Shown here: positions 13,405 through 60,707 of the stretch, in pieces
Numbering within the stretch: position 1 is the first letter of the stretch
How the letters are laid out: every line of letters starts with the position of its first letter
Source of the DNA: an uncultured Marinobacter sp.
GTDB lineage: Bacteria; Pseudomonadota; Gammaproteobacteria; Pseudomonadales; Oleiphilaceae
Direction of reading: 5' to 3'
Assembly (NCBI RefSeq): GCF_913055835.1
Contig: NZ_CAJXKQ010000017.1
Location: forward strand, 1-64,000
DNA length: 64,000 nt
The notes under the pieces: model-generated
The model's database searches: none
Told to the model about the DNA's origin: nothing
Seen by the model: only the letters and a program-made list of their open reading frames with translations
Program-made: the position numbers and the translations under genes

Positions 13405-14127
13405 ATGCCTGATTTCATTGCCGAGTGGTTAAACCAGAACGAAATCTTTACCGCCATGACCATCATGGAATACTGGGATGGCATGGTCACTACCGTGCAC
13501 CTGGTGTTCCTGTCACTGGTCATCGGTTTGTTGGTGGCGGTTTTACTGGCCATCCTGCGGACGGTTCGCAATCCGTTCGTGTCCGGCCCGGTGTGGCTTT
13601 ACACCTACCTGTTCCGCGGCACTCCGTTGCTGATTCAGCTTTACATCATTTATTACGGTATTGCGCAGATTCCCGGCATCCAGGAGACCTTCTGGTGGGA
13701 GATTTTCCGGGAGCCTTTCTACCCGGCCCTGCTGGCGTTCACGCTGAACACGGCGGCCTATACCACGGAGATTATCCGGGGGGCGATTGTGTCGACGCCC
13801 AATGGTGAGATTGAGGCGGCCAAGGCCTATGGCATGAACTGGTTTATGCGGATGCGGCGGATTGTGTTGCCGAGTGCAGCACGGCGGGCGGTGCAGGCCT
13901 ATTCCAACGAGGTGATTTTCATGCTGCATGCCAGTGCCATTGCCAGTGTGGTGACCATCGTGGATCTGACCGGGGCGGCGCGGAACATTTACTCGCGGTT
14001 CTATGCGCCGTTTGATGCGTTTATCTTTGTGGCGCTTTGCTATATGGCGCTTACCTTTATCCTGGTGTTCGCTTTCCGCAAACTCGAAAATCACCTGCTG
14101 AAGCATCAGCGGCCGGTTAGCGGCTGA
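13405..14127 (+). CDS. aotM: arginine/ornithine ABC transporter permease
   Basis: A 240-residue partner permease of the HisM/ArtM/AotM type. It shows the early YLFRGTPLLIQLYIIYYG segment typical of M-type subunits and the EAA loop IEAAKAYGMNWFMRMRRIVL. Helices are evenly spread and no signal peptide is needed. It is packed three bases after aotQ. The codons near the 3' end are still typical of the region. A hairpin repeat element occupies the gap to astE, so read-through of astE from this operon would have to cross it. Confidence 0.9.
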   Translation: MPDFIAEWLNQNEIFTAMTIMEYWDGMVTTVHLVFLSLVIGLLVAVLLAILRTVRNPFVSGPVWLYTYLFRGTPLLIQLYIIYYGIAQIPGIQETFWWEIFREPFYPALLAFTLNTAAYTTEIIRGAIVSTPNGEIEAAKAYGMNWFMRMRRIVLPSAARRAVQAYSNEVIFMLHASAIASVVTIVDLTGAARNIYSRFYAPFDAFIFVALCYMALTFILVFAFRKLENHLLKHQRPVSG

Positions 14128-14182
14128 TTCCGATTATAGTGCCCGGGCAGGCAGGGTATTGCCTCCCAGTTTGGTGCCGGGT

Positions 14183-14286
14183 CGGTTGGCGGGCGTCTTC
14201 CCGGGAGACGCTACGAGCACATCCATGTGCGCTTGACTGAGGCCATCCATGGCCTCAGACACTCCCGGGAAGACGCCCGCCAACCG
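14183..14286 (-). repeat. GGA-hairpin repeat element, copy A
   Basis: Perfect 25-bp inverted arms (14183-14207 and 14262-14286) enclose a 54-base core. Read on the minus strand, the core folds into CTGAGGCCA-TGGA-TGGCCTCAG and GCACA-TGGA-TGTGC, so GGA is presented in two loops. The core matches copies B (29570-29675) and C (60428-60617), but the arms do not. It lies between aotM and astE. Confidence 0.85.
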
Positions 14287-14312
14287 CCCTCAGACTTTTC
14301 CGTGGAGTCCCC

Positions 14313-15368
14313 ATGACCGCTAGCTCAGATCTATTTGGCAGTTCACCTGATTGGCTCTCCCATACCCTCGACAACGCCAACGCCTCACTCCCGGAAACCA
14401 AAACCTTCCTCCCCGATGGCACCCGTATCAGCCGCAAGGCCGTTGGCGTTCTGGACATTGCACCTCCCGCTGACCGCAACAACCCGAATGCCGAAGCCAT
14501 GATTGTTTCAGCCGGAGTCCATGGCAACGAGACAGCGCCGATTGAGGTTCTGAACGGGCTGGTCTCCGAGCTGATCGAGGGTAAATGGGAGCTTGCCTGT
14601 CCGGTATTGCTGATCCTCGGGAATCCGCCGGCAATGGTGGCCGGGAAGCGGTTTATGGAGGTGAACCTGAACCGGCTGTTCGATGGTGCCCACGGGCGCA
14701 GCGAATATCAGGGGCTGGCCGAGGCTGCTCGGGCTCAGGAGCTTGAGGAGGCCTGCCGGCAGTTTGCCATGGCGAATCCACAGGCGCTTTATCACTATGA
14801 TCTGCACACGGCGATTCGACCTTCTCACCGTGAGCGGTTTGCGTTGTATCCGTATGTTGAGGGACGGACCGTTCCGTCAGAGCAGTGCGAATTTCTGCTG
14901 GAGGCGGAGGTAGAGACGCTTTTGCTGCAGCATAAAGCGGGCACGACGTTTTCGTCGTTTTCTTCGTCGCTGCTGAAGGCCGAGAGTTTTACCGTGGAGC
15001 TGGGTAAGGTTCGGTCGTTCGGGCAGAATGATCTGGGGCGTTTCTCGGGCATACGGAATGCCTTGCGGCGGCGGTTCCGGGGGCAACCCTCACCTGCCCC
15101 ACAGCCGCCGTTTGATCACCTGACGGTGTTCGAGGTGGTGCATGAGATCCTGAACACTGGCAAGAACTTCCGGTTTCATATTCCGGACGATGTGGCCAAT
15201 TTTACCGAGTACCAGCCCGGCACAGTCATCTGGGAGGATGATGAAACCAGCTACCGGGTGGGGCATTCACCGGAGGCGATTGTGTTTCCGAATCCGGAGG
15301 TGCCCGTCGGTCACAGGGTCGGGCTGATGATTCGCCCGAAAACGGGGTCAGATGAAAATTTCATCTGA
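14313..15368 (+). CDS. astE: succinylglutamate desuccinylase AstE
   Basis: The last enzyme of the arginine succinyltransferase pathway, a Zn hydrolase that splits N-succinylglutamate into succinate and glutamate. Zinc ligands are visible at His70 and Glu73 (VHGNETAP) and His165 (HYDLHTAIR); the catalytic Glu lies in FTVELGKV near residue 229. The 351 residues are slightly longer than E. coli AstE (322). The last nine residues (GSDENFI and neighbours) and the stop come from a GGGGTCAGA palindrome, so the original C-terminus was probably replaced. It is separated from its pathway partners by the RND/TetR genes. Confidence 0.93.
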   Translation: MTASSDLFGSSPDWLSHTLDNANASLPETKTFLPDGTRISRKAVGVLDIAPPADRNNPNAEAMIVSAGVHGNETAPIEVLNGLVSELIEGKWELACPVLLILGNPPAMVAGKRFMEVNLNRLFDGAHGRSEYQGLAEAARAQELEEACRQFAMANPQALYHYDLHTAIRPSHRERFALYPYVEGRTVPSEQCEFLLEAEVETLLLQHKAGTTFSSFSSSLLKAESFTVELGKVRSFGQNDLGRFSGIRNALRRRFRGQPSPAPQPPFDHLTVFEVVHEILNTGKNFRFHIPDDVANFTEYQPGTVIWEDDETSYRVGHSPEAIVFPNPEVPVGHRVGLMIRPKTGSDENFI

Positions 15369-15372
15369 CCCC
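15344..15372. repeat. GGGGTCAGATGAAA palindrome overlapping the astE stop
   Basis: A perfect inverted repeat with 14-base arms around a single central A. The left arm lies in the last astE codons and the right arm supplies the TGA at 15366-15368. It shares the GGGGTCAGA stem with 2094-2138. It lies between convergent astE and the RND gene, where it may also end transcripts. Confidence 0.85.
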
Positions 15373-15384
15373 AAATTCAGGTAC

Positions 15385-29446: not shown

Positions 29447-29569
29447 TTGTTCGGATTTTATAGCGGACCTCTCTGAACATTGTTGGCCCAGAGGACTAGT
29501 GAATGGCAATCACAGGAAGACCATTGTCCTCACTGAAGGGAAAAGAAGAATGGGAAGGAGATGAAACGA

Positions 29570-29675
29570 GAGAGGCGGGCACTACGATTCAGGACTGTAG
29601 AGGGCCAGGGATGGCCCGAAACAAGCGCACAGGGATGTGCTTGTAGCGTGTCCTGAATCGTAGTGCCCGCCTCTC
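29570..29675 (+). repeat. GGA-hairpin repeat element, copy B
   Basis: Perfect 26-bp inverted arms (29570-29595, 29650-29675) enclose a 54-base core with hairpins GGGCCA-GGGA-TGGCCC (29602-29617) and GCACA-GGGA-TGTGC (29627-29640). The second contains ACAGGGATGT, the ten-base core of the CsrA consensus. It fills the gap between the convergent porin and aceF genes; nothing else of note is seen in 29447-29717. Confidence 0.87.
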
Positions 29676-29717
29676 GCCGCCCCCAACCTCAAAGGCTGGG
29701 GACGAACCTACCGGCTA

Positions 29718-36100: not shown

Positions 36101-36196
36101 AGGCTCATACACCATATGGGTGATGCCTGGCTTTTGTGGCTCTTCTAGCTTTGGTTTGTCGGAAACCGATAAAAACCAAGAATGAGGAATCACCAA

Positions 36197-39100
36197 ATGA
36201 TCAGGCAACACTCCCTTCGTTTATGGTTGTTGCTGTGCACCATGGCAGCAGCACTCATTATCAGTGGATGCGGAGGCGGCAGCAGCTCCGGCTCCGCAAC
36301 CACACCTCCCACCGATGATTCTGCAACCATCTCCGGCACCGCAGCGGCCGGGGCACCTGTATCGGGTGTTGTGGGCGCCCGGGACGCCGCAGACAATACG
36401 GCAACAGCAGCCATCAATGCCGATGGCAGCTTCGAGCTGGACCTCTCCGAACTGACGACACCAGTTCTGCTCTACGCCAGCGGTATTGCCGGCGGTAATG
36501 CCTACCAGATGCTTTCCGTGGCGTTTGCCGATGATTTGAATGGCACGGCAAACATCACACCACTAACAGACCTGATTGTTGGTAACGCTGTGGGCCGAAG
36601 CCCCCAGGGGTTTTTCAACAACCCGGATTTCGACCTGATCCAACAGGCAGCTATCGAGACTCAGGAAGAGGCGCTGAAGACGCGTTTAAAGCCCTTGCTT
36701 GATGCCCTGGGCGTTGAAGACGATTTCGATCTTCGCAACTCACCCTTTACTGCTAACCGCTCAGGGTTCGACGCCGCTCTGGATGTAATCGAGGTACAGA
36801 TCGATCCGGGCACGAATACGGCGACCATTACCAACCGGGTAAATCCGACCCAGACCATAACCAACAGTTTTGTTCAGCCGGAAAGCGAGGAAACCACGCT
36901 GGAGGTGAACGAGACCGAAATCAGCGATGGTGTTACCACATTGCAGGCGCTGAACGCCCTGGCAACTTCCTTTGCCAACGCGCTAGAAAGCCAGGATGAA
37001 ACTGCTCTGCAGAACCTGGTCACCAACGACTTCCTGAACAACGGCGAGACACTTAGCGGGTTTGCAACGCGGTTGGCCGGCTCTCCGGAAGGTATTGAAG
37101 ATGCAGGGGAACTGGCGGCAGACATTCGCAACTGGTCCCTGGCAGAGCTTGGCGAAGGTACCGCGAAGCTGAACGTTGGCCAGGCCCAGGGACCATGGCA
37201 GGCTATCAATGATAACGGCGATTGGAAACTCCAGGGCAACCAGCTGGAATTTTTCGTCTTTGTTGAGCCTACCCACCGATACGAGAATGGCGCTGACAGC
37301 CTGGTGATTGAAGAAATCGCAACGCTGATTTATGCCGGCTTCCCCTCAGCAAGCCTGGGCTCAGTGGCCGATTCCAGCGTTACCGTTTCCGGTGACCTGG
37401 AGAGCTTTAACGGCGGGCTGCCCATCGACTCCGAAAACAACCGTTTTGCCGACTTCCAGGGTCTGCCGGCTGGCTCCATCAGCTCCGGCGATCAGGTCAC
37501 GTTTGCCTGGAATAACCCGGTCGAAGGGGTTGTCGATTCCACAGCGACCTTTACCATTCGCCGTGGCAGCCCCGACTTCAGCAATGGCGCGCCGGAAATC
37601 ACTACGGCTTCAGCTGATCTGGCGGCCGATGAGTACAGCTTCCAGTGGACTCTGCCTCCGGGCTACGACGCCGTATCCGTGCGCAACAACTTTACCGGCC
37701 AGACCTCAGGCGGCCAGGGCGGCGGCTTTACTGGCAATCCGCTGGCAAACGATGCCACCAGCTTTACCGGCACTTTGCCTGAAAGCTATGTACCCGCCGA
37801 AACAGATCAACTCCGGTTAATTGCCCGGGATCCATTCGGTGTCTTCGTCTCCGCAAGGCTGGCAAATCCATTCCCGGACCAGGTGCCAGCGCCAATGGCA
37901 GAAAACGCTCTGATCGGCAGCTGGATCGCACGCAATGGCGATCGGGCGGATAACGCCCCATGGGTCCAGATTACCTTCCTGGAAAGCGGTTATTACATGC
38001 ATCAGGAGCTGGATCTGCCTTACCGCCCCGCGGAGGATACTTCTGGCGAGCAGGGCCTGGAGCTGGGTCAGTACCAATGGGATAACCAGACCGGCGAGAT
38101 TACGGTTTCTCAAATCGTACGGGACGACAACGGCGCATGGGGACTGACCGACGTCGAGAACGGTAGTGAGCGGCTCGCCCTGCGAATCGACGGTGACACT
38201 CTTACCGCTTATGATCCGGATGTTGGCCTGACAGAAACAACGGAGTTTACCCGGGTCCCGCTGAATCAGTCGGGCATCACCGGAACTTGGCTCGTGCAGG
38301 ATTCTGCGGACCCCACCAACGTCTCTGTATTGACGGTTCTGGCGGATGATTTCTACTTGCTGGGCACGACCCAGCCAGCCGATCAAACGGGTTCCCCCGG
38401 TCTCGAATTTGGCACCTTCACCTACAACAGTGAAACGCTAGTGCTAAATCCCAGCCCGCTCCTCGACCAGAACGGCGAATATGGTCTGTCAGATCCGATG
38501 CAGGGTTTTGACTATGTCACCGTGATTGAAGGCGCCCTGATCATTGATGATGGAGAAGTCTTCCAACTGAGTGAGATCGCCCCGGGCGTAGCGCCCAGTG
38601 ACGGCACACTCACGGTCAACTATGTGAGCCCGGATGATGAAATCACTGCGGGCCCTGCCGTCACCGGAGACTTCCATTACCTTCGGGCAGCCGCTGGGCT
38701 TGAAAGTTCAAGGGTGAACAATCCACCAACGGTGTTTCAGGCACACTATGCGCATCTGGGCGCCAGCATCGCGGACAATTCCGATGGAACCGGGACACTC
38801 AGCTGGTCGAACTTTTGTGTAGGCGACCTGCTGATCGATTCAGGTGCTAGCGAGGACGGACGGGATGCTGTGTTCGATTCCATCAGTGAATGCTTCGGCT
38901 TAAGCAGCAGTTTCGACCTAACCTTCACCGAAACCGGGCTTTTCGCAGCTGTTCCGGAAAGCACCATGATTGACCCCGAGGACGGCTCCCAGATTGTCAC
39001 CGGCGCGACAGAGATTGACTTCCGGGCGCTTGATGCTGGTCGCAGCCTCTTTATTGCCACTGAGGCGAATACCTTCCAGTTCGAGGAGAGTGACGGAAGT

Positions 39101-40039
39101 TTCACCGAAGGTCGTGACATGAATACCCATGTACTGAGCAAGACAGATCCGTCGCTGACCGTCGATTCGCTCGCCGGGGACTGGGGCTTCGCCACCTTGC
39201 GCATCTCCAACATCGTTGATGATTTCGACGCAGTCGTACCGAACGAGATGGAGTACGGAGCAGGGGCCCTTAACATCAGCGTTGATGCCGCTGGCAACGC
39301 CACTCTGACCGACGAAGTACAGCTGAATGTCGGCCAGGGCCTGAAACCCCTGGTGAATAGCGATATCTTCATTGATACAAGGAACGAAGAAACCGCACTC
39401 AACGTTGATCTTGGCGCTTTCGGGCTCACAACTGATGGCACGCTGGACCTGCTGAATGGCGAGCTCGGCGGATTTGTGTCGCAGGGCAGCGACGTAATGA
39501 CACTGGGGCTTCCCAATCCATTCACGCCCTATACCGTGCAGACCGAAGAATCGTCGTTCCTCATCGGTGTAAAACTGGACCCGAACTTCCAGGCCACCGA
39601 CCTCGCCGGAAAGTCCTACGACATAATGTTGAAAGGCTATTTCGCCGGACAGAATTATTTTGAAACGGACATCTTCCTGCCAGGTGCAACACTGGAATTC
39701 GACGCCAGTGGCACAGCAATCTCACAAAGGGGCCTTACCTTTGCCTATTCCAATTTCGGTCTGAACACCGACGTTGTGGATGTAACCCGGCAATCTGCAG
39801 GCCTCCCTGCCAACACCTGGACTTATCAGGTCGACGGCCCGACTGGGCTGATCAGAATGGAATCCCCTCAATACACGTATTCTGGCGGGGACGTTGGCTA
39901 TGGTGAACAGTTCGGTTATTCCTCTGCAGACAACCGGTTGCTGGTACTGGTCTCGCGCTTCTACGACAACTCTGGAGGTGTACCAATGGGACCCGCTGGC
40001 GTTTACATAGCCTACGCCATCTGCAACAACTGCAACTGA
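36197..40039 (+). CDS. giant surface lipoprotein with repeated W-modules
   Basis: A 1280-residue predicted lipoprotein; not assigned to a named family. The lipobox LIISGC is followed by GGGSSSGSATTPPTDD, a low-complexity tether. A carboxypeptidase-regulatory-like beta segment comes next (ATISGTAAAGAPVSGVV). A module opening G(S/T/D)W recurs near residues 572 (LIGSWIARNGD), 693 (ITGTWLVQDSAD) and 991 (LAGDWGFATLR), suggesting tandem lipocalin-like repeats. It is acidic throughout. The ATG at 36197 has GAGG at proper spacing; one at 36182 is also in frame. It ends at an intrinsic terminator. Probably exposed on the cell surface; function unknown. Confidence 0.75.
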   Translation: MIRQHSLRLWLLLCTMAAALIISGCGGGSSSGSATTPPTDDSATISGTAAAGAPVSGVVGARDAADNTATAAINADGSFELDLSELTTPVLLYASGIAGGNAYQMLSVAFADDLNGTANITPLTDLIVGNAVGRSPQGFFNNPDFDLIQQAAIETQEEALKTRLKPLLDALGVEDDFDLRNSPFTANRSGFDAALDVIEVQIDPGTNTATITNRVNPTQTITNSFVQPESEETTLEVNETEISDGVTTLQALNALATSFANALESQDETALQNLVTNDFLNNGETLSGFATRLAGSPEGIEDAGELAADIRNWSLAELGEGTAKLNVGQAQGPWQAINDNGDWKLQGNQLEFFVFVEPTHRYENGADSLVIEEIATLIYAGFPSASLGSVADSSVTVSGDLESFNGGLPIDSENNRFADFQGLPAGSISSGDQVTFAWNNPVEGVVDSTATFTIRRGSPDFSNGAPEITTASADLAADEYSFQWTLPPGYDAVSVRNNFTGQTSGGQGGGFTGNPLANDATSFTGTLPESYVPAETDQLRLIARDPFGVFVSARLANPFPDQVPAPMAENALIGSWIARNGDRADNAPWVQITFLESGYYMHQELDLPYRPAEDTSGEQGLELGQYQWDNQTGEITVSQIVRDDNGAWGLTDVENGSERLALRIDGDTLTAYDPDVGLTETTEFTRVPLNQSGITGTWLVQDSADPTNVSVLTVLADDFYLLGTTQPADQTGSPGLEFGTFTYNSETLVLNPSPLLDQNGEYGLSDPMQGFDYVTVIEGALIIDDGEVFQLSEIAPGVAPSDGTLTVNYVSPDDEITAGPAVTGDFHYLRAAAGLESSRVNNPPTVFQAHYAHLGASIADNSDGTGTLSWSNFCVGDLLIDSGASEDGRDAVFDSISECFGLSSSFDLTFTETGLFAAVPESTMIDPEDGSQIVTGATEIDFRALDAGRSLFIATEANTFQFEESDGSFTEGRDMNTHVLSKTDPSLTVDSLAGDWGFATLRISNIVDDFDAVVPNEMEYGAGALNISVDAAGNATLTDEVQLNVGQGLKPLVNSDIFIDTRNEETALNVDLGAFGLTTDGTLDLLNGELGGFVSQGSDVMTLGLPNPFTPYTVQTEESSFLIGVKLDPNFQATDLAGKSYDIMLKGYFAGQNYFETDIFLPGATLEFDASGTAISQRGLTFAYSNFGLNTDVVDVTRQSAGLPANTWTYQVDGPTGLIRMESPQYTYSGGDVGYGEQFGYSSADNRLLVLVSRFYDNSGGVPMGPAGVYIAYAICNNCN

Positions 40040-40062
40040 CTCCTCAACTGATTTTTCTCTTC

Positions 40063-40088
40063 AGCCCCGCCAAGTGCGGGGCTTTTTT
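40063..40088 (+). terminator. intrinsic terminator after the giant lipoprotein
   Basis: AGCCCCGC pairs with GCGGGGCT across CAAGT and runs into TTTTTT. It begins 24 bases after the stop codon and separates this gene from the LuxR gene. Confidence 0.92.
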
Positions 40089-40174
40089 ATGGATGTTTGG
40101 CACAGACTGCAAGCCTGTGCTTTACTTGCAGGACGCAACCAATATGTACAAAAAAGCAACAGGGAGCGATTGGT

Positions 40175-41305
40175 TTGAAGGATCCGGGGTCGGAAGTCCC
40201 TCACTTGCTGGATGATCTGTATGAGCGAGCGACCGCCCCGGACCAGTGGCCGGAGTTCCTTGCCAAGCTTATGGTTCTGTTCCGTGGAGAAACCGCCACC
40301 ATACGTCTGAGCGACCTGGACAATCCGGTAATTCACCAATCCTATACCACCGGCTTCCGACAGGAAATCAATCAAATATACGAAGCCGAGGGCGTTGAGC
40401 GTGATCCCTTCAGGGATGCATTGGCGGCGTTGCCGGTCGGCAAGGCGCTAGAGAGTACCGCGGTTATTGAAGACCGGGCGTTCGAAGGTTCCGTCCACTA
40501 CCAATCCGTGTTTCGGCCCAACGGCAACTTTTATGCGTTGGGCACCCAATTCGAGCGCCAGAACGGTCAGGCAATGCATGTGGGCATTCACCGACCGAAA
40601 CAAAAGGGCCCCTTCAGTAACGACGAACTCAAACTGCTGGAGCTCTTCAGCCCCCATCTTCGTCGAGTCGTGAAACTATCGCGCATGATGGCCGACCTGA
40701 ACGAAGCACTCTCTGTCGCCAGGCACGCCCTTGACAGATTACCGTTCGGAGTCTGGTACATGGACAGCGAATTACGGGTGCAATGGATGAACGCCAGCGC
40801 AGAAGAAGCCTTTGCCACCAACAGTTTTGGCCTGAAAGTCCAATACAATCGTCTTCGAATGCTGGCCGCAGGCGCATCCACAACCCTGCGAGCCATGGTA
40901 CGACGTCTGACTGAGCATCGCTCGCTCACGGAAACCGTAAAACTCGGGCAAACCGGTGCCTGCCTGCTCATGGTGCCAACCTGCACCTCCGGAACCAGTC
41001 TTCACATAATCCGCTCACCGGCACCCAAGATTCTCTGCTTTCTGCTGGACACCACCCGGCCAGCAGAACTGGACGAGAATCGGCTGACCACGATGTATCA
41101 CCTCACTCCTGCGGAGTACCGGCTTGCAAACCTTCTGGTAACCGGCCTCGATGTCAACGAGGCCAGCGCAGTGCTTGAGATTTCTCCTCACACCGGCAGG
41201 ACACAGCTCAAATCCATCATGCGCAAGACCGGCGTTCGCCGTCAGGCGAGCCTGCAGCGAATACTGCTCCTCTGCGCAGATACGCTAAGGGCTTCTGATG
41301 ACTGA
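40175..41305 (+). CDS. LuxR-type transcriptional regulator
   Basis: A 376-residue regulator. The C-terminal helix-turn-helix (about 312-370) reads YHLTPAEYRLANLLVTGLDVNEAS, then EISPHTGRTQLKSIMRKTGV, a LuxR/GerE-type domain. The N-terminal ~300 residues look like a sensory region (DDLYERATAPDQWPEFLAKL opening, later GVWYMDSELRVQWMNASAEEAF resembling PAS), as in a group of marine LuxR proteins. The frame opens at 40097, but that part overlaps the terminator zone. The TTG at 40175 has AGGGAG eight bases upstream and is preferred. It overlaps the hydrolase gene by eight bases, so the two form one operon. Confidence 0.78.
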   Translation: MKDPGSEVPHLLDDLYERATAPDQWPEFLAKLMVLFRGETATIRLSDLDNPVIHQSYTTGFRQEINQIYEAEGVERDPFRDALAALPVGKALESTAVIEDRAFEGSVHYQSVFRPNGNFYALGTQFERQNGQAMHVGIHRPKQKGPFSNDELKLLELFSPHLRRVVKLSRMMADLNEALSVARHALDRLPFGVWYMDSELRVQWMNASAEEAFATNSFGLKVQYNRLRMLAAGASTTLRAMVRRLTEHRSLTETVKLGQTGACLLMVPTCTSGTSLHIIRSPAPKILCFLLDTTRPAELDENRLTTMYHLTPAEYRLANLLVTGLDVNEASAVLEISPHTGRTQLKSIMRKTGVRRQASLQRILLLCADTLRASDD

Positions 41306-42146
41306 TGCCGCAAGAAACCAGAACCTGCAACTTTCAGACGGCCGAAGCCTGAGTTTTTCAGACACCGGCACCGGCGAAAATGGCACTTGGATCCACTGCC
41401 ATGGAATTCCGGGATCCCGTAACGAACTGCGTCACCTCGAGAGCGCTCTGTTCCATGCCGGGGTTCGAGTCATTGTTCCGGATCGCCCCGGCTATGGACA
41501 GTCCAGCCCCTGCCCCAGTTATGGATTTTCACACCATTCGGATGATCTGAGGCAACTGGCCGACTATCTGGAACTGGATGATTTCCTGCTATCCGGGTTC
41601 TCCGGGGGCGGCGTATTCGCCATGGCCGCCGCCCATGATCTGGGTAAACGAATCGAGCAACTGGTGATCGCAGCAACACCAGCGGTTCCTCTGATGGACA
41701 ACCCCTTCGATTATGCCTCAGAACTTACCGCCAGTACCTGGCGAGCAGCGCTGGACGATCGCGATGCGCTGGCAAAAGAATTGGAGCTCATTACTGGTTC
41801 TGTGGATGTGCTATTGGAAGCGCTCATAGGGGCCGCAGGCGATCAGGAGGAGCACTACCTGTCATCAAACTCTATTCGTCCGGGCTTTACGGAGAACCTT
41901 AGCGCCGCGCTGGAACAGGGATCCAAAACGGCAGCCGATGCGCTTGCCAGGGATTCGTTTCTGACAGCCCAATCATGGCCTTTTTCACCCCAGGACATAC
42001 ACCTTCCAGTGCGGGTGATTCATGGCTCGGGGGACAGGCTTGTGCACATAGAGCACCAGAGCACGTTGTCCAGCAACTTTCCGGACGGTTCCCCCGAGGT
42101 CATCAGCGGCGCTCACTACGGCGCTCTTTCGGCTATCTGGAACTGA
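41298..42146 (+). CDS. alpha/beta hydrolase
   Basis: A 282-residue cytoplasmic alpha/beta-fold hydrolase. The oxyanion motif is HGIPGS (35-40), the nucleophile Ser102 lies in SGFSGGG, and candidate acid and base are in HGSGDRLVHIEH and SGAHYGAL near the end. No signal peptide. Substrate unknown. The start overlaps the LuxR gene by eight bases. A regulator plus hydrolase pair suggests that the enzyme's substrate or product is what the regulator senses (inference). Confidence 0.83.
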   Translation: MTDAARNQNLQLSDGRSLSFSDTGTGENGTWIHCHGIPGSRNELRHLESALFHAGVRVIVPDRPGYGQSSPCPSYGFSHHSDDLRQLADYLELDDFLLSGFSGGGVFAMAAAHDLGKRIEQLVIAATPAVPLMDNPFDYASELTASTWRAALDDRDALAKELELITGSVDVLLEALIGAAGDQEEHYLSSNSIRPGFTENLSAALEQGSKTAADALARDSFLTAQSWPFSPQDIHLPVRVIHGSGDRLVHIEHQSTLSSNFPDGSPEVISGAHYGALSAIWN

Positions 42147-42179
42147 ATCTGCGGCTGTGCCCATCAGAAAAGCTGATGC

Positions 42180-43274
42180 TCAATAATTGTAAGAAAGCCC
42201 CAGACTGATGGCGCGAACGCTGGACCACGTTACCTCATCGGCAGATACCATTGCCTGCCATTTCCCTCTGGTCAGTTCCAACCGTATCGATTCCAACTCC
42301 GGCCAGTAGCTAGCCAGTATCCGTGCGCCACCTGCGAACGTTCGCCCGAAGCCGGCGCCATAGAGCCCATAACCGAATTGATAGTGGCCGTGCACGACTG
42401 CGAGCCAAGCGCCCTCTTGCCACTGGGCCGTACCATAAAACCTGGGATCCAGATCCTGATAAAAAGTGTCCCGATACCCTTCCGTGCCAGATATCGTTGG
42501 GGCAAATACAGCGTAGCCATCGTCATCGAAGGACTTATTGTCGGTGTTTGCCTGGGCTCGCGTGAAAGGCGCATCCTTCCATCGAATCCGTGAGAAAAGA
42601 TCCTCGGCCCGGAGGTTCAAATCGAGCTTTTCCATGGGTTGCCAGCTGGCGGCAATATCAAAAGCCCAACCGATGCCACTGGCTTTCTCTACATCCGGCC
42701 GATCAAAGATCACGTCCCGGTAGTAGAGATAGTCAACGTCTGCGCTGAAGTCGTAGTCATTCTCGGCGGCCGCTACAAACTCCCCATCAAGGGTGCCGCT
42801 CATCAAATGGCGGGTTTTGAAGACGGAAATGCCGCCGGAAATCGTCCAGGATTCGTCGCTATGTCGATAGCCAGACCGGATTCCGGACCCCGAAAAACCA
42901 TTAACGCGCAGAGCAACGGGAATCTGCTCGCCTTCGTTCAGCGGCTCCTTGCGGGCAATCCGTCCATAAAAGCTCACGGCCTGAGAATTCATCCTCAGAT
43001 CCGCCAGCGCACGGGTGAAAACCGAAACCTCGATTCCTTGCTCCCGAAAACCGGCCTCCGCATGGCTGATCGCCCATTGGCGGCTACCTGAATCGAATTC
43101 ACTGCCCCAATCGCTCAGTGTGGTTTTGATTGGCTCCGGCTCACTGACCAGTTGGGTCTCGAACCTGCCAAACATCTCCACGGCCAGCACTGTATTGGCA
43201 TTAACACTCGCTATAACGAAAAAAAAGGCGGGGCCGAAGCCCCACCTTTCTTTCCGGTTTCCCGGCACTTTCAT
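42180..43274 (-). CDS. predicted outer-membrane beta-barrel protein
   Basis: A 364-residue protein with a likely signal peptide (basic KVPGNRKER, hydrophobic WGFGPAFFFVIASV, cleavage near VNANTVLA) and then alternating amphipathic strands, many ending in Tyr or Trp (DYLYYRD, HGHYQFGYGLYGAGFG). It ends SLGLSYNY, an aromatic terminus as in outer-membrane barrels. The ATG overlaps the stop of the upstream lipoprotein gene by one base (TGATG). An intrinsic terminator lies inside codons about 10-19, so the start or expression is unusual. No named family recognised; partnership with the lipoprotein is inferred. Confidence 0.65.
   Translation of the reverse strand: MKVPGNRKERWGFGPAFFFVIASVNANTVLAVEMFGRFETQLVSEPEPIKTTLSDWGSEFDSGSRQWAISHAEAGFREQGIEVSVFTRALADLRMNSQAVSFYGRIARKEPLNEGEQIPVALRVNGFSGSGIRSGYRHSDESWTISGGISVFKTRHLMSGTLDGEFVAAAENDYDFSADVDYLYYRDVIFDRPDVEKASGIGWAFDIAASWQPMEKLDLNLRAEDLFSRIRWKDAPFTRAQANTDNKSFDDDGYAVFAPTISGTEGYRDTFYQDLDPRFYGTAQWQEGAWLAVVHGHYQFGYGLYGAGFGRTFAGGARILASYWPELESIRLELTRGKWQAMVSADEVTWSSVRAISLGLSYNY
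43219..43246 (-). terminator. intrinsic terminator inside the barrel gene's 5' codons
   Basis: In the minus-strand RNA GGUGGGGC pairs with GCCCCGCC over a UUCG tetraloop (one G-U pair) and is followed by eight U. It lies 28-55 bases beyond the lipoprotein stop, and also encodes WGFGPAFFF of the next protein. Confidence 0.88.
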
Positions 43275-45859
43275 CAGAACAATGTCTCGAACACGGTTTC
43301 TTCGCCGTTCGGATAGGTGATGACCGGAACGCCGTTTCGCAGTTCTACGTCACCGATGTCCTCACCGTTAACGAAGACATTACCTGTCAGACTCTGCTCT
43401 CCACTGGCCGCTTCCGAACCAACCGCTTCCAGTCGGAATCCTTGCGGGTTCCAGAATGCCAGGCTGATTTCCGGGTTTTCAGCGTTCAGCTCATCGGTGC
43501 TGACCTTGAGGCTGTAGCTGCCGCCATCCCAGCTGACGTTTGCGAGCACGCTGCCACCGTTCAGAGTTGAACGTGTCAGGGTAGCCACAGCTGTTGCTTT
43601 TGGCATATCAACCAGAGAAACGCCTGCCGCGATGTTGAATGACAGGTTGACGAAGTTGTCGGCGGTCTCAAGGTCGGGGAAAGCAATGTCAGCATACACC
43701 TCGGCGAAATCTGACGTGCTGTTACCGTATACAGAGACATATTCAACCTGGGACTGTCCGGCAACGGTGGCACCAACGGCGGTCTCGAGTTTGCCAAGGA
43801 TCAGTTGATCAAGTGCAGCTGTTTCAGCATCGTCGAGCACGTTGCAATTGAAATCGTCGTAACCAAGCTCACTGTCAAACCAACCGGAGAACGCAACCCT
43901 TTCGCCATACGTTTCCGTTCCGGTCTCATAATCGTAGCACGACCAGTCAGACACGATATCGAACCAGAAGTCCTGTGCAGTTTCGTCATACTCAACAAAC
44001 TGCGCCACCTCAGCACGATCCACTTCAAAATCAAACGAAGCGGTTGTGTTGTTGTAGTCTAGGTATGTGAACAGGTTAAAGCGCTGGGCGGTGCTGCTGT
44101 TCAGGGATGTCGAGAGATTGAAGGTGCGCCCGGAAGTCGCTGTAAAATCACCCGAGAGAGCAAAGGACTCCGGCGAGAACGGCTCATCCAGCTCGCCAAA
44201 ACTGGAGCCCGTCATGTTTACAGCCTTCACCGAGATTTCACCGTCGAAGCTGGCCGCCTCTGGGTTGGCAAGCGCAATGGAACCGTTCAGGGCAATGGCA
44301 CTGAATTTTTCCAGAACGGCATCGGCCGCCGTAACCTCCCCTACAATCTCTTCGGAAAGTTCAAGGGTGGCAACCAGATCCAGCACTGCTCGATTAAAGC
44401 CGGTGCCATCACCGATCGTGCCACTGACAGTGACATTGTTTTGTGTGAGCAATGACAGAACCTTCTCGGCATCGTAGGTGAGGTCCAGATCGTCCTGAGC
44501 AAGGCTGGTGCCGATGACCAGATCAAAATCTCGGGTCTCTCCACCGATCTGGGAAACACTGCCAGTGGCCGTAGCCTTGAGGCCGGATTCTGTATCCTCA
44601 AAAACGAGCGTGGCGTCCATGGTACCTGTGGCAGTTGGATCTTCTTCATCAGTCCAGCTCTGCTGAGCTGTGAACTGCGTGCCACTTTCCAGAGCTTCCA
44701 ACAGCGCTGCTCGTCCTTCGGTACCGGCCAACTGCTGGGAGAAAACATCCAGTACCTTACTCACCAGATCACCAGTTACGCCAGCCTGAGCGAATACGTC
44801 ACTGACGGTTTCTGCGTCCGCATCCAGCGCAACAGAAACGGCAGACGTTTCGTCCTGCAGAGCAGCAGCAGTTTCATCGATAGAGCCGGCCCAGCTGCGG
44901 AACTGGGAAACAAACGACTGGAAGGCCGCAATCTTGTCTGCTTGCGTGGCACCCTCATCAAGATCCAGGTCTTCGTCATAGCTGGGAGCAAGGTTATCCC
45001 CTGCAGCATCAAACTGCGCGGTCTGGTTGTTCAGGGACTCTTGAGTCTCGTCATTCAGGCCGTCCGTTGTCTCGACAACAGTTTTCACAGCTGAAGAAAG
45101 GCTTGTCGCTGTAAACGCATCTTCGCTATTAATCGCCCCGTCACTAAGGGCATCGGAGAAGCTGTCCAACGACGCGGCTGCGCCATCAGTTCCACCAGCA
45201 AAGACCAACTCGGCGACGGCCGCATTCATCACCGCTGCCTGAGCTTCAGCGGCACTGGCCCCAGACAGGTCGTTCACGTCTCGAGCTACGGTGTTTTCAA
45301 TATCGAAGCCCGCCACCTGGCTTACTTCTGCTTTTGCCTGTCTCGCCGCATCTGCAACACTTTTGCCGCCAGCAACGAGGGTCTTAGCACGCTTGGCGGC
45401 CATGGTTGACCAGGCGGTTACCGGGACGCTTACGGTGCTACCTGCCGAACTGGCTTTACCAATGGCATTCAACTTAAAGTCATTTGGTAGTTCGACATCC
45501 GCGCCTTTCGTGCCGCAGGCAGAAGCATCACAAACCATGCGGGTTTCAGAGCTGACGGTGATCTCGATCTCAACGAGCCCACCCTCGTAGTTGTCGTCAA
45601 GCTCAATACGGTATTGGCCTTTGCTGTCGGTTGTTGTCGAGCCAACCGGGGTTTCCAGGCGCTCACCTGAATCATCCAACTCGTAAGCAGTTACAACAGC
45701 GTTTTTCATAATACCTTTGACAGCGGAACCGGCTACCACAGAGGTATCACCAGCGGGGCCGCTAGTTGAGGGTGACGAAGAACCGCCTCCACCACAACCG
45801 GTTACAACCAGGCCTGAGGAAACTGCAACAGCAAGCGCTAACCTTTTGAACTTATCCAA
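43274..45859 (-). CDS. large GCGGGG surface lipoprotein
   Basis: An 861-residue predicted lipoprotein. The start is a TTG at 45859 with AAGGAG just upstream; the longer frame to 45922 adds a non-signal sequence. The signal LDKFKRLALAVAVSSGLVVTGC has its lipobox Cys near residue 22, then GGGGSSSPSTSGPAGD as tether. A carboxypeptidase-regulatory-like beta domain follows (VVAGSAVKGIMKNAVVTAYEL), then a helical, Ala-rich region (about 140-330) and an acidic beta-rich C-terminal half. Same architecture as the 1280-residue lipoprotein at 36197, but without obvious W-modules. Function unknown; co-transcribed with the barrel gene. Confidence 0.75.
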   Translation of the reverse strand: MDKFKRLALAVAVSSGLVVTGCGGGGSSSPSTSGPAGDTSVVAGSAVKGIMKNAVVTAYELDDSGERLETPVGSTTTDSKGQYRIELDDNYEGGLVEIEITVSSETRMVCDASACGTKGADVELPNDFKLNAIGKASSAGSTVSVPVTAWSTMAAKRAKTLVAGGKSVADAARQAKAEVSQVAGFDIENTVARDVNDLSGASAAEAQAAVMNAAVAELVFAGGTDGAAASLDSFSDALSDGAINSEDAFTATSLSSAVKTVVETTDGLNDETQESLNNQTAQFDAAGDNLAPSYDEDLDLDEGATQADKIAAFQSFVSQFRSWAGSIDETAAALQDETSAVSVALDADAETVSDVFAQAGVTGDLVSKVLDVFSQQLAGTEGRAALLEALESGTQFTAQQSWTDEEDPTATGTMDATLVFEDTESGLKATATGSVSQIGGETRDFDLVIGTSLAQDDLDLTYDAEKVLSLLTQNNVTVSGTIGDGTGFNRAVLDLVATLELSEEIVGEVTAADAVLEKFSAIALNGSIALANPEAASFDGEISVKAVNMTGSSFGELDEPFSPESFALSGDFTATSGRTFNLSTSLNSSTAQRFNLFTYLDYNNTTASFDFEVDRAEVAQFVEYDETAQDFWFDIVSDWSCYDYETGTETYGERVAFSGWFDSELGYDDFNCNVLDDAETAALDQLILGKLETAVGATVAGQSQVEYVSVYGNSTSDFAEVYADIAFPDLETADNFVNLSFNIAAGVSLVDMPKATAVATLTRSTLNGGSVLANVSWDGGSYSLKVSTDELNAENPEISLAFWNPQGFRLEAVGSEAASGEQSLTGNVFVNGEDIGDVELRNGVPVITYPNGEETVFETLF

Positions 45860-46127
45860 AGTGTCTCTCCTTGAGATCCTTATTTTATGACGGTCGGCTA
45901 CGACAAAATTAAAATTCAGCAATGTCGCAAACCGTCAAAGAGGCTAATCCAAGGAAAGACCATGCGATAGGCAGGGTTTTGTTCACAAAACACTCAAAAC
46001 GAGAACAAATTCCACACTGCATTGTTTTTATTAAGTTTTTATACCGATCAACAAATGTGAAACATTATAAAAGATCATTCTATATGTGAGTTTATGAACT
46101 AAATAGAACAGAGCATCTCTAACCTGC

Positions 46128-46442
46128 TCATTTCTTAGGGACAAACCCCTCCGGCTTGTCCCTGAGCCACTCAACAAAAGTCCGCAACTCCTCCAACTCC
46201 AGCAACTTTTCCCGAGTATTGAAGTACAAACCCAGCTCATACTCGGAACGGGCCTTGTGGATAGCGTTATGGCATGGACGGCATACCCAGAGTGTTCGGG
46301 TGATCAGCTCCTCCTTGGTGAACAGTTTCTGAAAACGCTTTTTGCGGTGCAGATGCTTGGGGATCAGGTGGTGCCGGGTGAGCTTGGCCACCGGTCGTTC
46401 GCAGAGTTCGCAGTTGTCAGGTTGGGGTGGGAGTTTGAGCAT
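46128..46442 (-). CDS. HNH endonuclease-family protein
   Basis: A 104-residue protein with a compact HNH fold: CELCERP supplies one Cys pair, KLTRHHLIPKHLH the HH of the active site, and CRPCHNAIHKA the second Cys pair and the final His. Such small free-standing HNH proteins occur in many gammaproteobacteria; their targets are mostly unknown. No phage or restriction genes are adjacent, so it seems a solitary housekeeping-type member. Confidence 0.8.
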   Translation of the reverse strand: MLKLPPQPDNCELCERPVAKLTRHHLIPKHLHRKKRFQKLFTKEELITRTLWVCRPCHNAIHKARSEYELGLYFNTREKLLELEELRTFVEWLRDKPEGFVPKK

Positions 46443-50035: not shown

Positions 50036-50050
50036 TCGTGGGGGGGGGTT

Positions 50051-50178
50051 GTCGGATTACGCTTTGCTAATCCGACCTACGGGTTGAGGGTTTGTCGGAT
50101 TACGCTTCGCTAATCCGACCTACGAGTTTGGAAAGCTGCTTTGTAGGTCGGATTAGACCCAATGGGTCGTAATCCGAC
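50051..50178. repeat. triple cluster of GTCGGATTACG palindromes
   Basis: Two direct copies (50051-50080, 50094-50123) and one inverted copy (50143-50178). Each pairs GTCGGATTA with TAATCCGAC and adds CCTAC at one end. In the third, the loop is ACCCAATGGGT, itself palindromic. They fill the gap between lon and the convergent marR gene. Related copies: 46456, 60374, 60676. Confidence 0.85.
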
Positions 50179-60361: not shown

Positions 60362-60373
60362 AATCCTGGCTTT

Positions 60374-60405
60374 GTCGGATTACGCCTTTGGCTAATCCGA
60401 CCTAC
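60374..60405. repeat. GTCGGATTACG palindrome, left of element C
   Basis: GTCGGATTA pairs with TAATCCGAC around CGCCTTTGGC, and is followed by CTAC. It is identical over the unit to 60676-60707 and in the same orientation. Confidence 0.85.
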
Positions 60406-60427: not shown

Positions 60428-60617
60428 GCGGCTGTTGGGAGAGGCTTTTCAAAACTGTAGAGGGCCATGGATGGCCCGAAACAAGCGCACATGGGTGAGA
60501 CAAGCGATTTAGAAGCAAAGCTTCGCGCGCAGGCGAACGACAGCAATCTGTGATTGCTGGCTGGACCCGCTTGCGGGTGCTTGTAGCGTGTTTTGAAAAG
60601 CCTGTCCCAACAGCCGC
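60428..60617 (+). repeat. GGA-hairpin repeat element, copy C (expanded)
   Basis: Inverted arms of 28 bases with one mismatch (60428-60455, 60590-60617) enclose a 134-base core. It begins with hairpin GGGCCA-TGGA-TGGCCC (60462-60477) and the conserved GAAACAAGCGCACATGG, but where copies A and B close the second hairpin it carries about 80 extra bases with hairpins CAGCAATC-TGT-GATTGCTG (60541-60559) and ACCCGC-TT-GCGGGT (60565-60578). It ends with the shared GCTTGTAGCGT. Confidence 0.83.
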
Positions 60618-60671: not shown

Positions 60672-60675
60672 CTTT

Positions 60676-60707
60676 GTCGGATTACGCCTTTGGCTAATCC
60701 GACCTAC
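60676..60707. repeat. GTCGGATTACG palindrome, right of element C
   Basis: Second identical copy, between the terminator and the pnp stop. With 60374-60405 it brackets element C as 32-base direct repeats 270 bases apart at the right ends. Confidence 0.85.

Follow-up and report, generated by a model that had tools for sequence, protein, structure and literature searches.

Variable but internally paired arms in a dispersed two-hairpin element of Marinobacter with resemblance to TwoAYGGAY

The window analysed in our study, a 64,000-nucleotide stretch of the contig NZ_CAJXKQ010000017.1 of an uncultured Marinobacter sp., contains a repeated element whose two arms differ from copy to copy yet pair with each other within a copy. 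The question raised by this locus is how such arms arise. An earlier note on the same DNA had offered three possible causes, namely insertion of a core into an existing hairpin, an insertion process making an inverted copy of the flanking DNA, and long compensatory evolution of a stem. We consider that the copy at 14180-14289 (copy A) is probably an old, high-copy, dispersed and structured element of the TwoAYGGAY type with drifting paired arms, whose GGA strand (the strand carrying the GGA loops) would serve as a CsrA-binding RNA.

Three copies (A, B and C) were found in the window, with the following features:

14180-14289, minus strand: copy A, full element, with a 28-bp stem and a 54-base core containing two ANGGAN hairpins; model score 119.8 bits
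14262-14289, minus strand: 5' arm of copy A, 28 bases, on the GGA strand
14208-14261, minus strand: core of copy A, 54 bases, with hexaloops ATGGAT and ATGGAT
14180-14207, minus strand: 3' arm of copy A, 28 bases, on the GGA strand, pairing with the 5' arm at 27 of 28 positions
14145-14167, plus strand: arm-allele fossil beside copy A, 23 bases equal to part of the arm of a relative (G058) at the same locus
29568-29677, plus strand: copy B, full element, with hexaloops AGGGAT and AGGGAT and convergent genes on either side
60428-60617, plus strand: copy C with a long core (134 bases) and one mismatch, at base pair 15 counted from the inside

The element is about 110 bases long. On the GGA strand, a 28-base arm was followed by the core, in which a short tail comes after hairpins 1 and 2, and by the complementary 28-base arm. 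The predicted fold placed two hairpins atop the long stem and agreed with the three-way junction suggested earlier. The arms of copies A, B and C contained 27 Watson-Crick pairs out of 28 each and differed in sequence between copies, which confirmed the observation behind the question; the arm lengths of 25, 26 and 28 bases given with it were not upheld, the stem being 28 bp in all three copies. The 54-base core described as shared was present in copies A and B, whereas in copy C about 80 extra bases were inserted in hairpin 2 of the 54-base core as an extra domain, and ATGGGT was found where the second ANGGAN loop stood.

Copy A was located between an ABC-transporter permease gene (13405-14127, plus strand) and an astE-like gene (14313-15368, plus strand), both named from their reading frames, and its GGA strand is antisense to both. 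The region of copy A looks recombinant, given the arm-allele fossil at 14145-14167. The genes around copy C were convergent and hydrolase-like and pnp-like, respectively. The window also contained a short palindromic repeat, GTCGGATTACGC..GCTAATCCGACCTAC, at 50045-50128, 60370-60405 and 60672-60707, which adjoins several elements and of which two identical copies flank copy C at one place. A 41-base palindromic repeat around GGGGTCAGA..TCTGACCCC was present as an inverted pair (2104-2144 and 15338-15378) with 88% complementarity. A segment of about 10 kb, at about 36105-46133, was absent at the same place from all five close relatives compared; by eye, its long frames were lipoprotein-like or outer-membrane-like.

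For the analysis of the stem, 30 copies were gathered with the core sequence as the only criterion; 28 came from this genome and 2 from M. santoriniensis, the single match of the near-complete core pattern among named genomes. Pairing was found in 25 to 30 of the 30 copies at each of base pairs 1-27, in 20 at base pair 28 and in 7 at base pair 29. The mean identity between the copies was 49% in the arms and 84% in the core. One copy (L017), whose arms are out of register, was excluded from the alignment and the mismatch count, and in the remaining 29 copies all 28 stem pairs showed changes on both sides. The covariation score of the whole structure in these copies was 0.699; shuffled alignments gave 0.169 (none of 500 as high) and slid controls at most 0.148. 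A scan of the window for at least 22 of 24 pairs across a 54-base gap found 2 sites, and five mononucleotide-shuffled windows contained none. The inner 11 base pairs had a common arm consensus between copies and the middle and outer positions used all pair types, so the arms can be regarded as homologous and as drifting fast outside the inner part. Near the base of hairpin 2, one base pair was not formed on the GGA strand in 19 of the 29 copies. The alignment shows a conserved folding potential of the GGA strand, as a 28-bp rod with two ANGGAN hairpins, in which length and loops are kept and the stem sequence is not. As in TwoAYGGAY, a long outer stem closes both hairpins, here of 28 bp and with covariation at all pairs.

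A G·T pair on one strand is mirrored by A·C on the opposite strand, and an excess of one over the other therefore reveals the strand on which selection for folding acts. Base pairs 1-25, read on the GGA strand, gave a G·T to A·C ratio of 23:0 in the 29 copies that had been collected by their core sequence alone; the ratio was 37:6 at the astE locus described below and 13:0 in a second subfamily. The pooled ratio was 73:6, with a binomial p of about 1e-15 if the cases are taken as independent, the sequences being related. Over all 28 base pairs of the first set, the ratio was 28:5. Counter to the proposed reading stand the 6 A·C mismatches of the astE locus and 28 other mismatches across the three sets. 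The stem finder used at the astE locus scored G·T slightly positive and could slightly favour G·T there. By predicted fold energy, 26 of 30 copies were more stable on the GGA strand; copy A was one of the four exceptions, with -84.2 kcal/mol on the GGA strand and -84.7 kcal/mol on the other, a gap of 0.5. The asymmetry holds even at the astE locus, where both neighbouring genes are antisense to the GGA strand. It points to RNA made from the GGA strand or, less well, to single-stranded DNA. Upstream of copy A on the GGA strand, one promoter-like match was found at 14527-14499 (0.2 expected), as a match to the consensus only.

The origin of the arms was studied at orthologous sites. Of the 124 genomes of the genus, 122 contained the astE-like gene, and 90 of the 122 upstream regions were fetched and read. 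The element occupied the same position, with unchanged orientation, in 68 of the 90 species. The other 22 were not counted: L140, L151 and L160 were degenerate, L143 (G073) was a hybrid, L174 was inverted and 17 had no stem in the stem search. A likely hybrid, G094, stays within the 68. These 68 stems comprised 55 distinct ones, nearly all well paired; base pairs 1-25 gave 1375 cells, with 1321 Watson-Crick pairs, 37 G·T, 6 A·C and 11 other combinations. In 75 close stem pairs, we found 128 double Watson-Crick changes, 39 one-sided changes to G·T and 8 to A·C, together with 4 one-sided and 19 two-sided changes of other kinds. Single base pairs made up 160 of the 177 runs of stem difference. 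As read from the sequences, the history of the astE-locus stems is compensatory drift at a fixed site. In L140 and L151 (genomes G115 and G056), arm-like inverted repeats persist around a core that is no longer recognisable.

An empty site was found in G085. Its flanks at the astE site are near-identical to those of G095, and a 122-bp block holding both arms is missing, with no half-stem left. The near relatives are occupied, and the empty site is therefore read as a deletion. The locus of copy C was empty in G080; in G070, terminator-like sequence was present on both sides of the element, and so G080 was likely emptied by a recombination deletion. Hybrid stems were also found at the astE locus. 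In G073, the 5' arm was that of G077 (28/28) and the 3' arm that of G053 (28/28), and only 17 of 28 positions paired with each other. The 5' arm of G094 was that of G117 (28/28) and its 3' arm was nearest to those of G090, G083 and G043 (26/28), with 21 of 28 positions paired, and G094 looks like a second hybrid. Since the arms of a hybrid come from two lineages, arms are inherited alleles which can be mixed by recombination through the common core.

Taken together, the drift at orthologous sites, the clean empty site and the two hybrids indicate that the arms are homologous strands of one conserved, compensating stem, and neither pre-existing hairpins nor fresh inverted copies. The orthologous loci thus support the third of the causes first offered, long compensatory evolution of a stem, mostly as base-pair-by-base-pair drift at the 68 occupied sites. 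The comparison of orthologous loci proposed in the earlier note has now been run; it bore out stem drift behind the arm differences and found no pre-existing arms at the empty site of G085. Insertion making an inverted copy of the flanking DNA, by which each copy would acquire arms of its own, accounts for arms that vary by site and pair within a site. We regard it as very improbable, since neither arm is present at the empty site, the arms drift in place at a fixed orthologous site and the inner 11 base pairs share a consensus. Equally remote is the insertion of the core into existing hairpins such as terminators. The arm-like sequence around the unrecognisable core in G115 and G056 speaks for it, although both are more simply seen as decayed copies; the element stands at a fixed site in 68 of 90 species, the stem measures about 28 bp at many unrelated sites, the empty site has no stem, and in 25 copies examined the 3' arm is never immediately followed by a run of T.

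A further explanation is intrastrand template switching (quasi-palindrome correction), in which one arm is rewritten from the other and pairing results from the mechanics of mutation instead of selection. The mismatches are few, as it would predict. At copies B and C, two main arm alleles each were found among the relatives compared, and the stems switch block-wise between relatives on both sides at once, which also fits such rewriting. Template switching, however, predicts no asymmetry between G·T and A·C, against the 73:6 observed. Between close stems, most changes affect one base pair in isolation, with G·T pairs as intermediates, and the hybrid stems of G073 and G094 remain unrewritten. 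This explanation is therefore considered improbable, and the preferred reading remains a stem kept paired by selection on the folding strand.

At the locus of copy C, short and long cores were found among relatives; the outer 12 base pairs keep the local sequence, and the inner arms and the core differ. Ectopic conversion was suspected there, and a donor search in this genome identified no recent donor. This genome contained 12 long-core copies including copy C, of which the best other near-full match had 87% identity and a partial match situated at the end of a contig 90%. The long core was seen at L092, L099, L104 and copy C; long and short cores alternate at one locus among relatives whose arms are almost identical, for example in G075 and G001.

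A covariance model was built from 29 copies and used for genome searches. Scoring 150 of 1807 candidates gave at least 113 matches at E<=1 in this genome, at least 107 of them at E<=0.01. In the genus, matches were found in 122 of 124 genomes under strict filters with at most 31 candidates scored per genome; the two congeners without any and the at least 113 matches here mark the range. In the order, under stricter filters with 13 candidates scored per genome, matches were present in at least 102 of 293 genomes and at least 49 of 118 genera, including Marinobacter. The second subfamily, of 108-114 bases, contained other hairpin stems with the same kind of loop and a similar stem length. The motif CAGGCTA downstream of some copies was considered as an end of the element and rejected, as it was absent by eye from most copies of the second subfamily. 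None of 54 elements was inside a called gene. The orientations of the two neighbouring genes relative to the GGA strand were +- in 17, -+ in 14, ++ in 11 and -- in 10 of these 54, with 2 undetermined. These counts are random and so indicate no preferred orientation to transcription, which makes a general role as an mRNA leader unlikely. Close neighbours stood head to head, with their 5' ends facing, in 15 of 16 cases in this genome (109 of the 113 matches used, four weak ones omitted) and in 10 of 10 in G108. In G108, 29 of 80 matches were located within 0.37-0.85 Mb.

High copy number, intergenic position, random orientation, head-to-head pairs (also 10 of 11 among the 150 RF01731 matches listed) and a number of matches that varies from none in two congeners to at least 113 speak for non-autonomous mobile DNA, in which the GGA strand would matter as single-stranded DNA and, as in REP/BIME, a transposase or recombinase would recognise its hairpins. 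We consider this reading unlikely, though it keeps more weight than the other alternatives. No Y1_Tnp was found at E<=1e-10 in this genome, which is about 94% complete, and 58 of the 124 genomes of the genus have one. No bias to replication direction was found in G108 (36 of 80, p = 0.43, the origin being placed, by assumption, opposite the dif site). Among the five close relatives, copies A and B were present in all and copy C in four, and the region of the window showed no sign of a recent gain. G·T pairs in DNA are poorer than G·U pairs in RNA, and the G·T excess thus suits single-stranded DNA less well.

The hairpin loops suggest how a folded RNA could act. The loop of hairpin 1 was ANGGAN in 112 of 114 elements, and that of hairpin 2 in register in 103 of 114, copy A being counted twice. 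Loop positions 2 and 6 varied, whereas the A and the GGA almost never did; at position 2 all four bases occurred, with A or G in many copies, compared with the Y in the name TwoAYGGAY. The SELEX consensus of CsrA is RUACARGGAUGU, mostly with six-base loops in which AC and GU are paired (PMC7652899). The element contains paired GGA hexaloops closed by C-G, the sequence expected of a CsrA-binding RNA, and csrA was found in all 19 genomes searched, this genome among them. From the match of ANGGAN to the CsrA/RsmA hexaloop and the presence of csrA, we infer that a CsrA dimer could clamp the two hairpins.

The sequence comparison shows arms that are inherited site by site; most of their changes are compensated within the base pair, by way of G·T pairs on the GGA strand. 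The proposed mechanism would be as follows. The GGA strand would be made as RNA, in which G·U pairs are tolerated, and a CsrA/RsmA dimer may hold its paired ANGGAN hairpins. The similarity of the core would be kept by the constraint of protein contact, and perhaps also by recombination between copies through the core. The rod, with its constant length, could shield the ends of the RNA or act as a spacer. The many copies might together form a dispersed CsrA-binding RNA, either as a sponge or for the protection of the host transcript. The furthest form of this proposal is a distributed CsrA sponge across many bacteria of the order, with up to a hundred or more folded-RNA copies per genome in both orientations and in head-to-head pairs, and with copy-by-copy selection on the folding of one strand even where it is antisense; we put it forward as doubtful. 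If true, CsrA titration would be a property of intergenic space and not of a few small-RNA genes.

TwoAYGGAY was listed in 2010 and is still a family of unknown function in the literature searched. The at least 113 matches, the locus occupied in 68 of 90 species and the strand asymmetry provide a natural mutational scan of an element of this type, which shows the folding strand, the fixed loop bases and the kept stem length. The element here is a dispersed repeat and not the leader of particular genes, and its orthologous sites clearly document how a stem evolves by compensatory change.

REP stems are shorter than the stem found here and keep their sequence. As in REP, BIME and REPIN, the element is of high copy number, intergenic and in alternating or inverted orientation (PMC2817692); unlike in REP/BIME, no REP-associated transposase was found in this genome. 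The R-families of Pseudomonas fluorescens are likewise intergenic inverted repeats around a core, the larger ones with hundreds of copies (PMC2718517). They are described as identical repeats around a core of variable size, whereas the present element has a conserved core and variable arms, and by that description they are set apart (PMC2718517). The sponge RNAs CsrB, CsrC, RsmY and RsmZ contain several GGA hairpins as CsrA sites (PMC7652899), as the element does; they are single regulated genes, whereas the element is repeated at dispersed places, each copy offering two sites. RsmZ (RF00166) was not found above the cut-off in the 19 genomes, nor at E<=0.01 in this genome. Its sub-threshold hits in 4 of the 19 (not this one) were rejected, since they occurred equally in 4 of 14 control genomes. 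In the literature searched, taken without supplements and most subscription papers, no Marinobacter or CsrA-linked repeat and no high-copy dispersed repeat of this type was seen. Against that literature, the copy number, the random orientation to genes, the head-to-head pairs, the constant stem length and the strand asymmetry are apparently new.

The closest known family is TwoAYGGAY. Previous studies listed it as probably RNA and probably not cis-regulatory (PMC2864571), and later proposed that it binds CsrA, describing its external stem as "not well conserved" (PMC4333381). In Rfam it is RF01731, placed in clan CL00106 with CsrC and typed as cis-regulatory, a typing to which the random orientation found here gives no support. 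The window had no Rfam match at the gathering threshold; microRNA-type matches were taken as chance hits to long stems. The gathering score of RF01731, 43 bits, was not reached in the window and nine loci, where one sub-threshold match of 34.1 bits was found, and among 9 of 209 candidates scored in this genome there was no match at E<=0.001. In the order, with nine candidates scored, RF01731 had matches in at least 44 of 293 genomes, at least 24 of them with matches above the cut-off, and up to at least 9 matches each. Four RF01731 copies of other genomes (L221-L224) showed further common sequence downstream by eye, and the repeat may belong to a longer one there. The element model (R1) recovered 8 of 10 RF01731 loci at E<=0.001 and L225 and L226 at E 0.4-0.7, and each of the two models detected matches of the other. 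The copies in our study differ from TwoAYGGAY in scoring below the RF01731 cut-off and in a loop position 2 that is unrestricted, ANGGAN in place of AYGGAY. They resemble it in the long, poorly conserved outer stem, the two hairpins and the head-to-head pairs. On these grounds, the element is called a variant of the TwoAYGGAY kind and not a formal member of the family.
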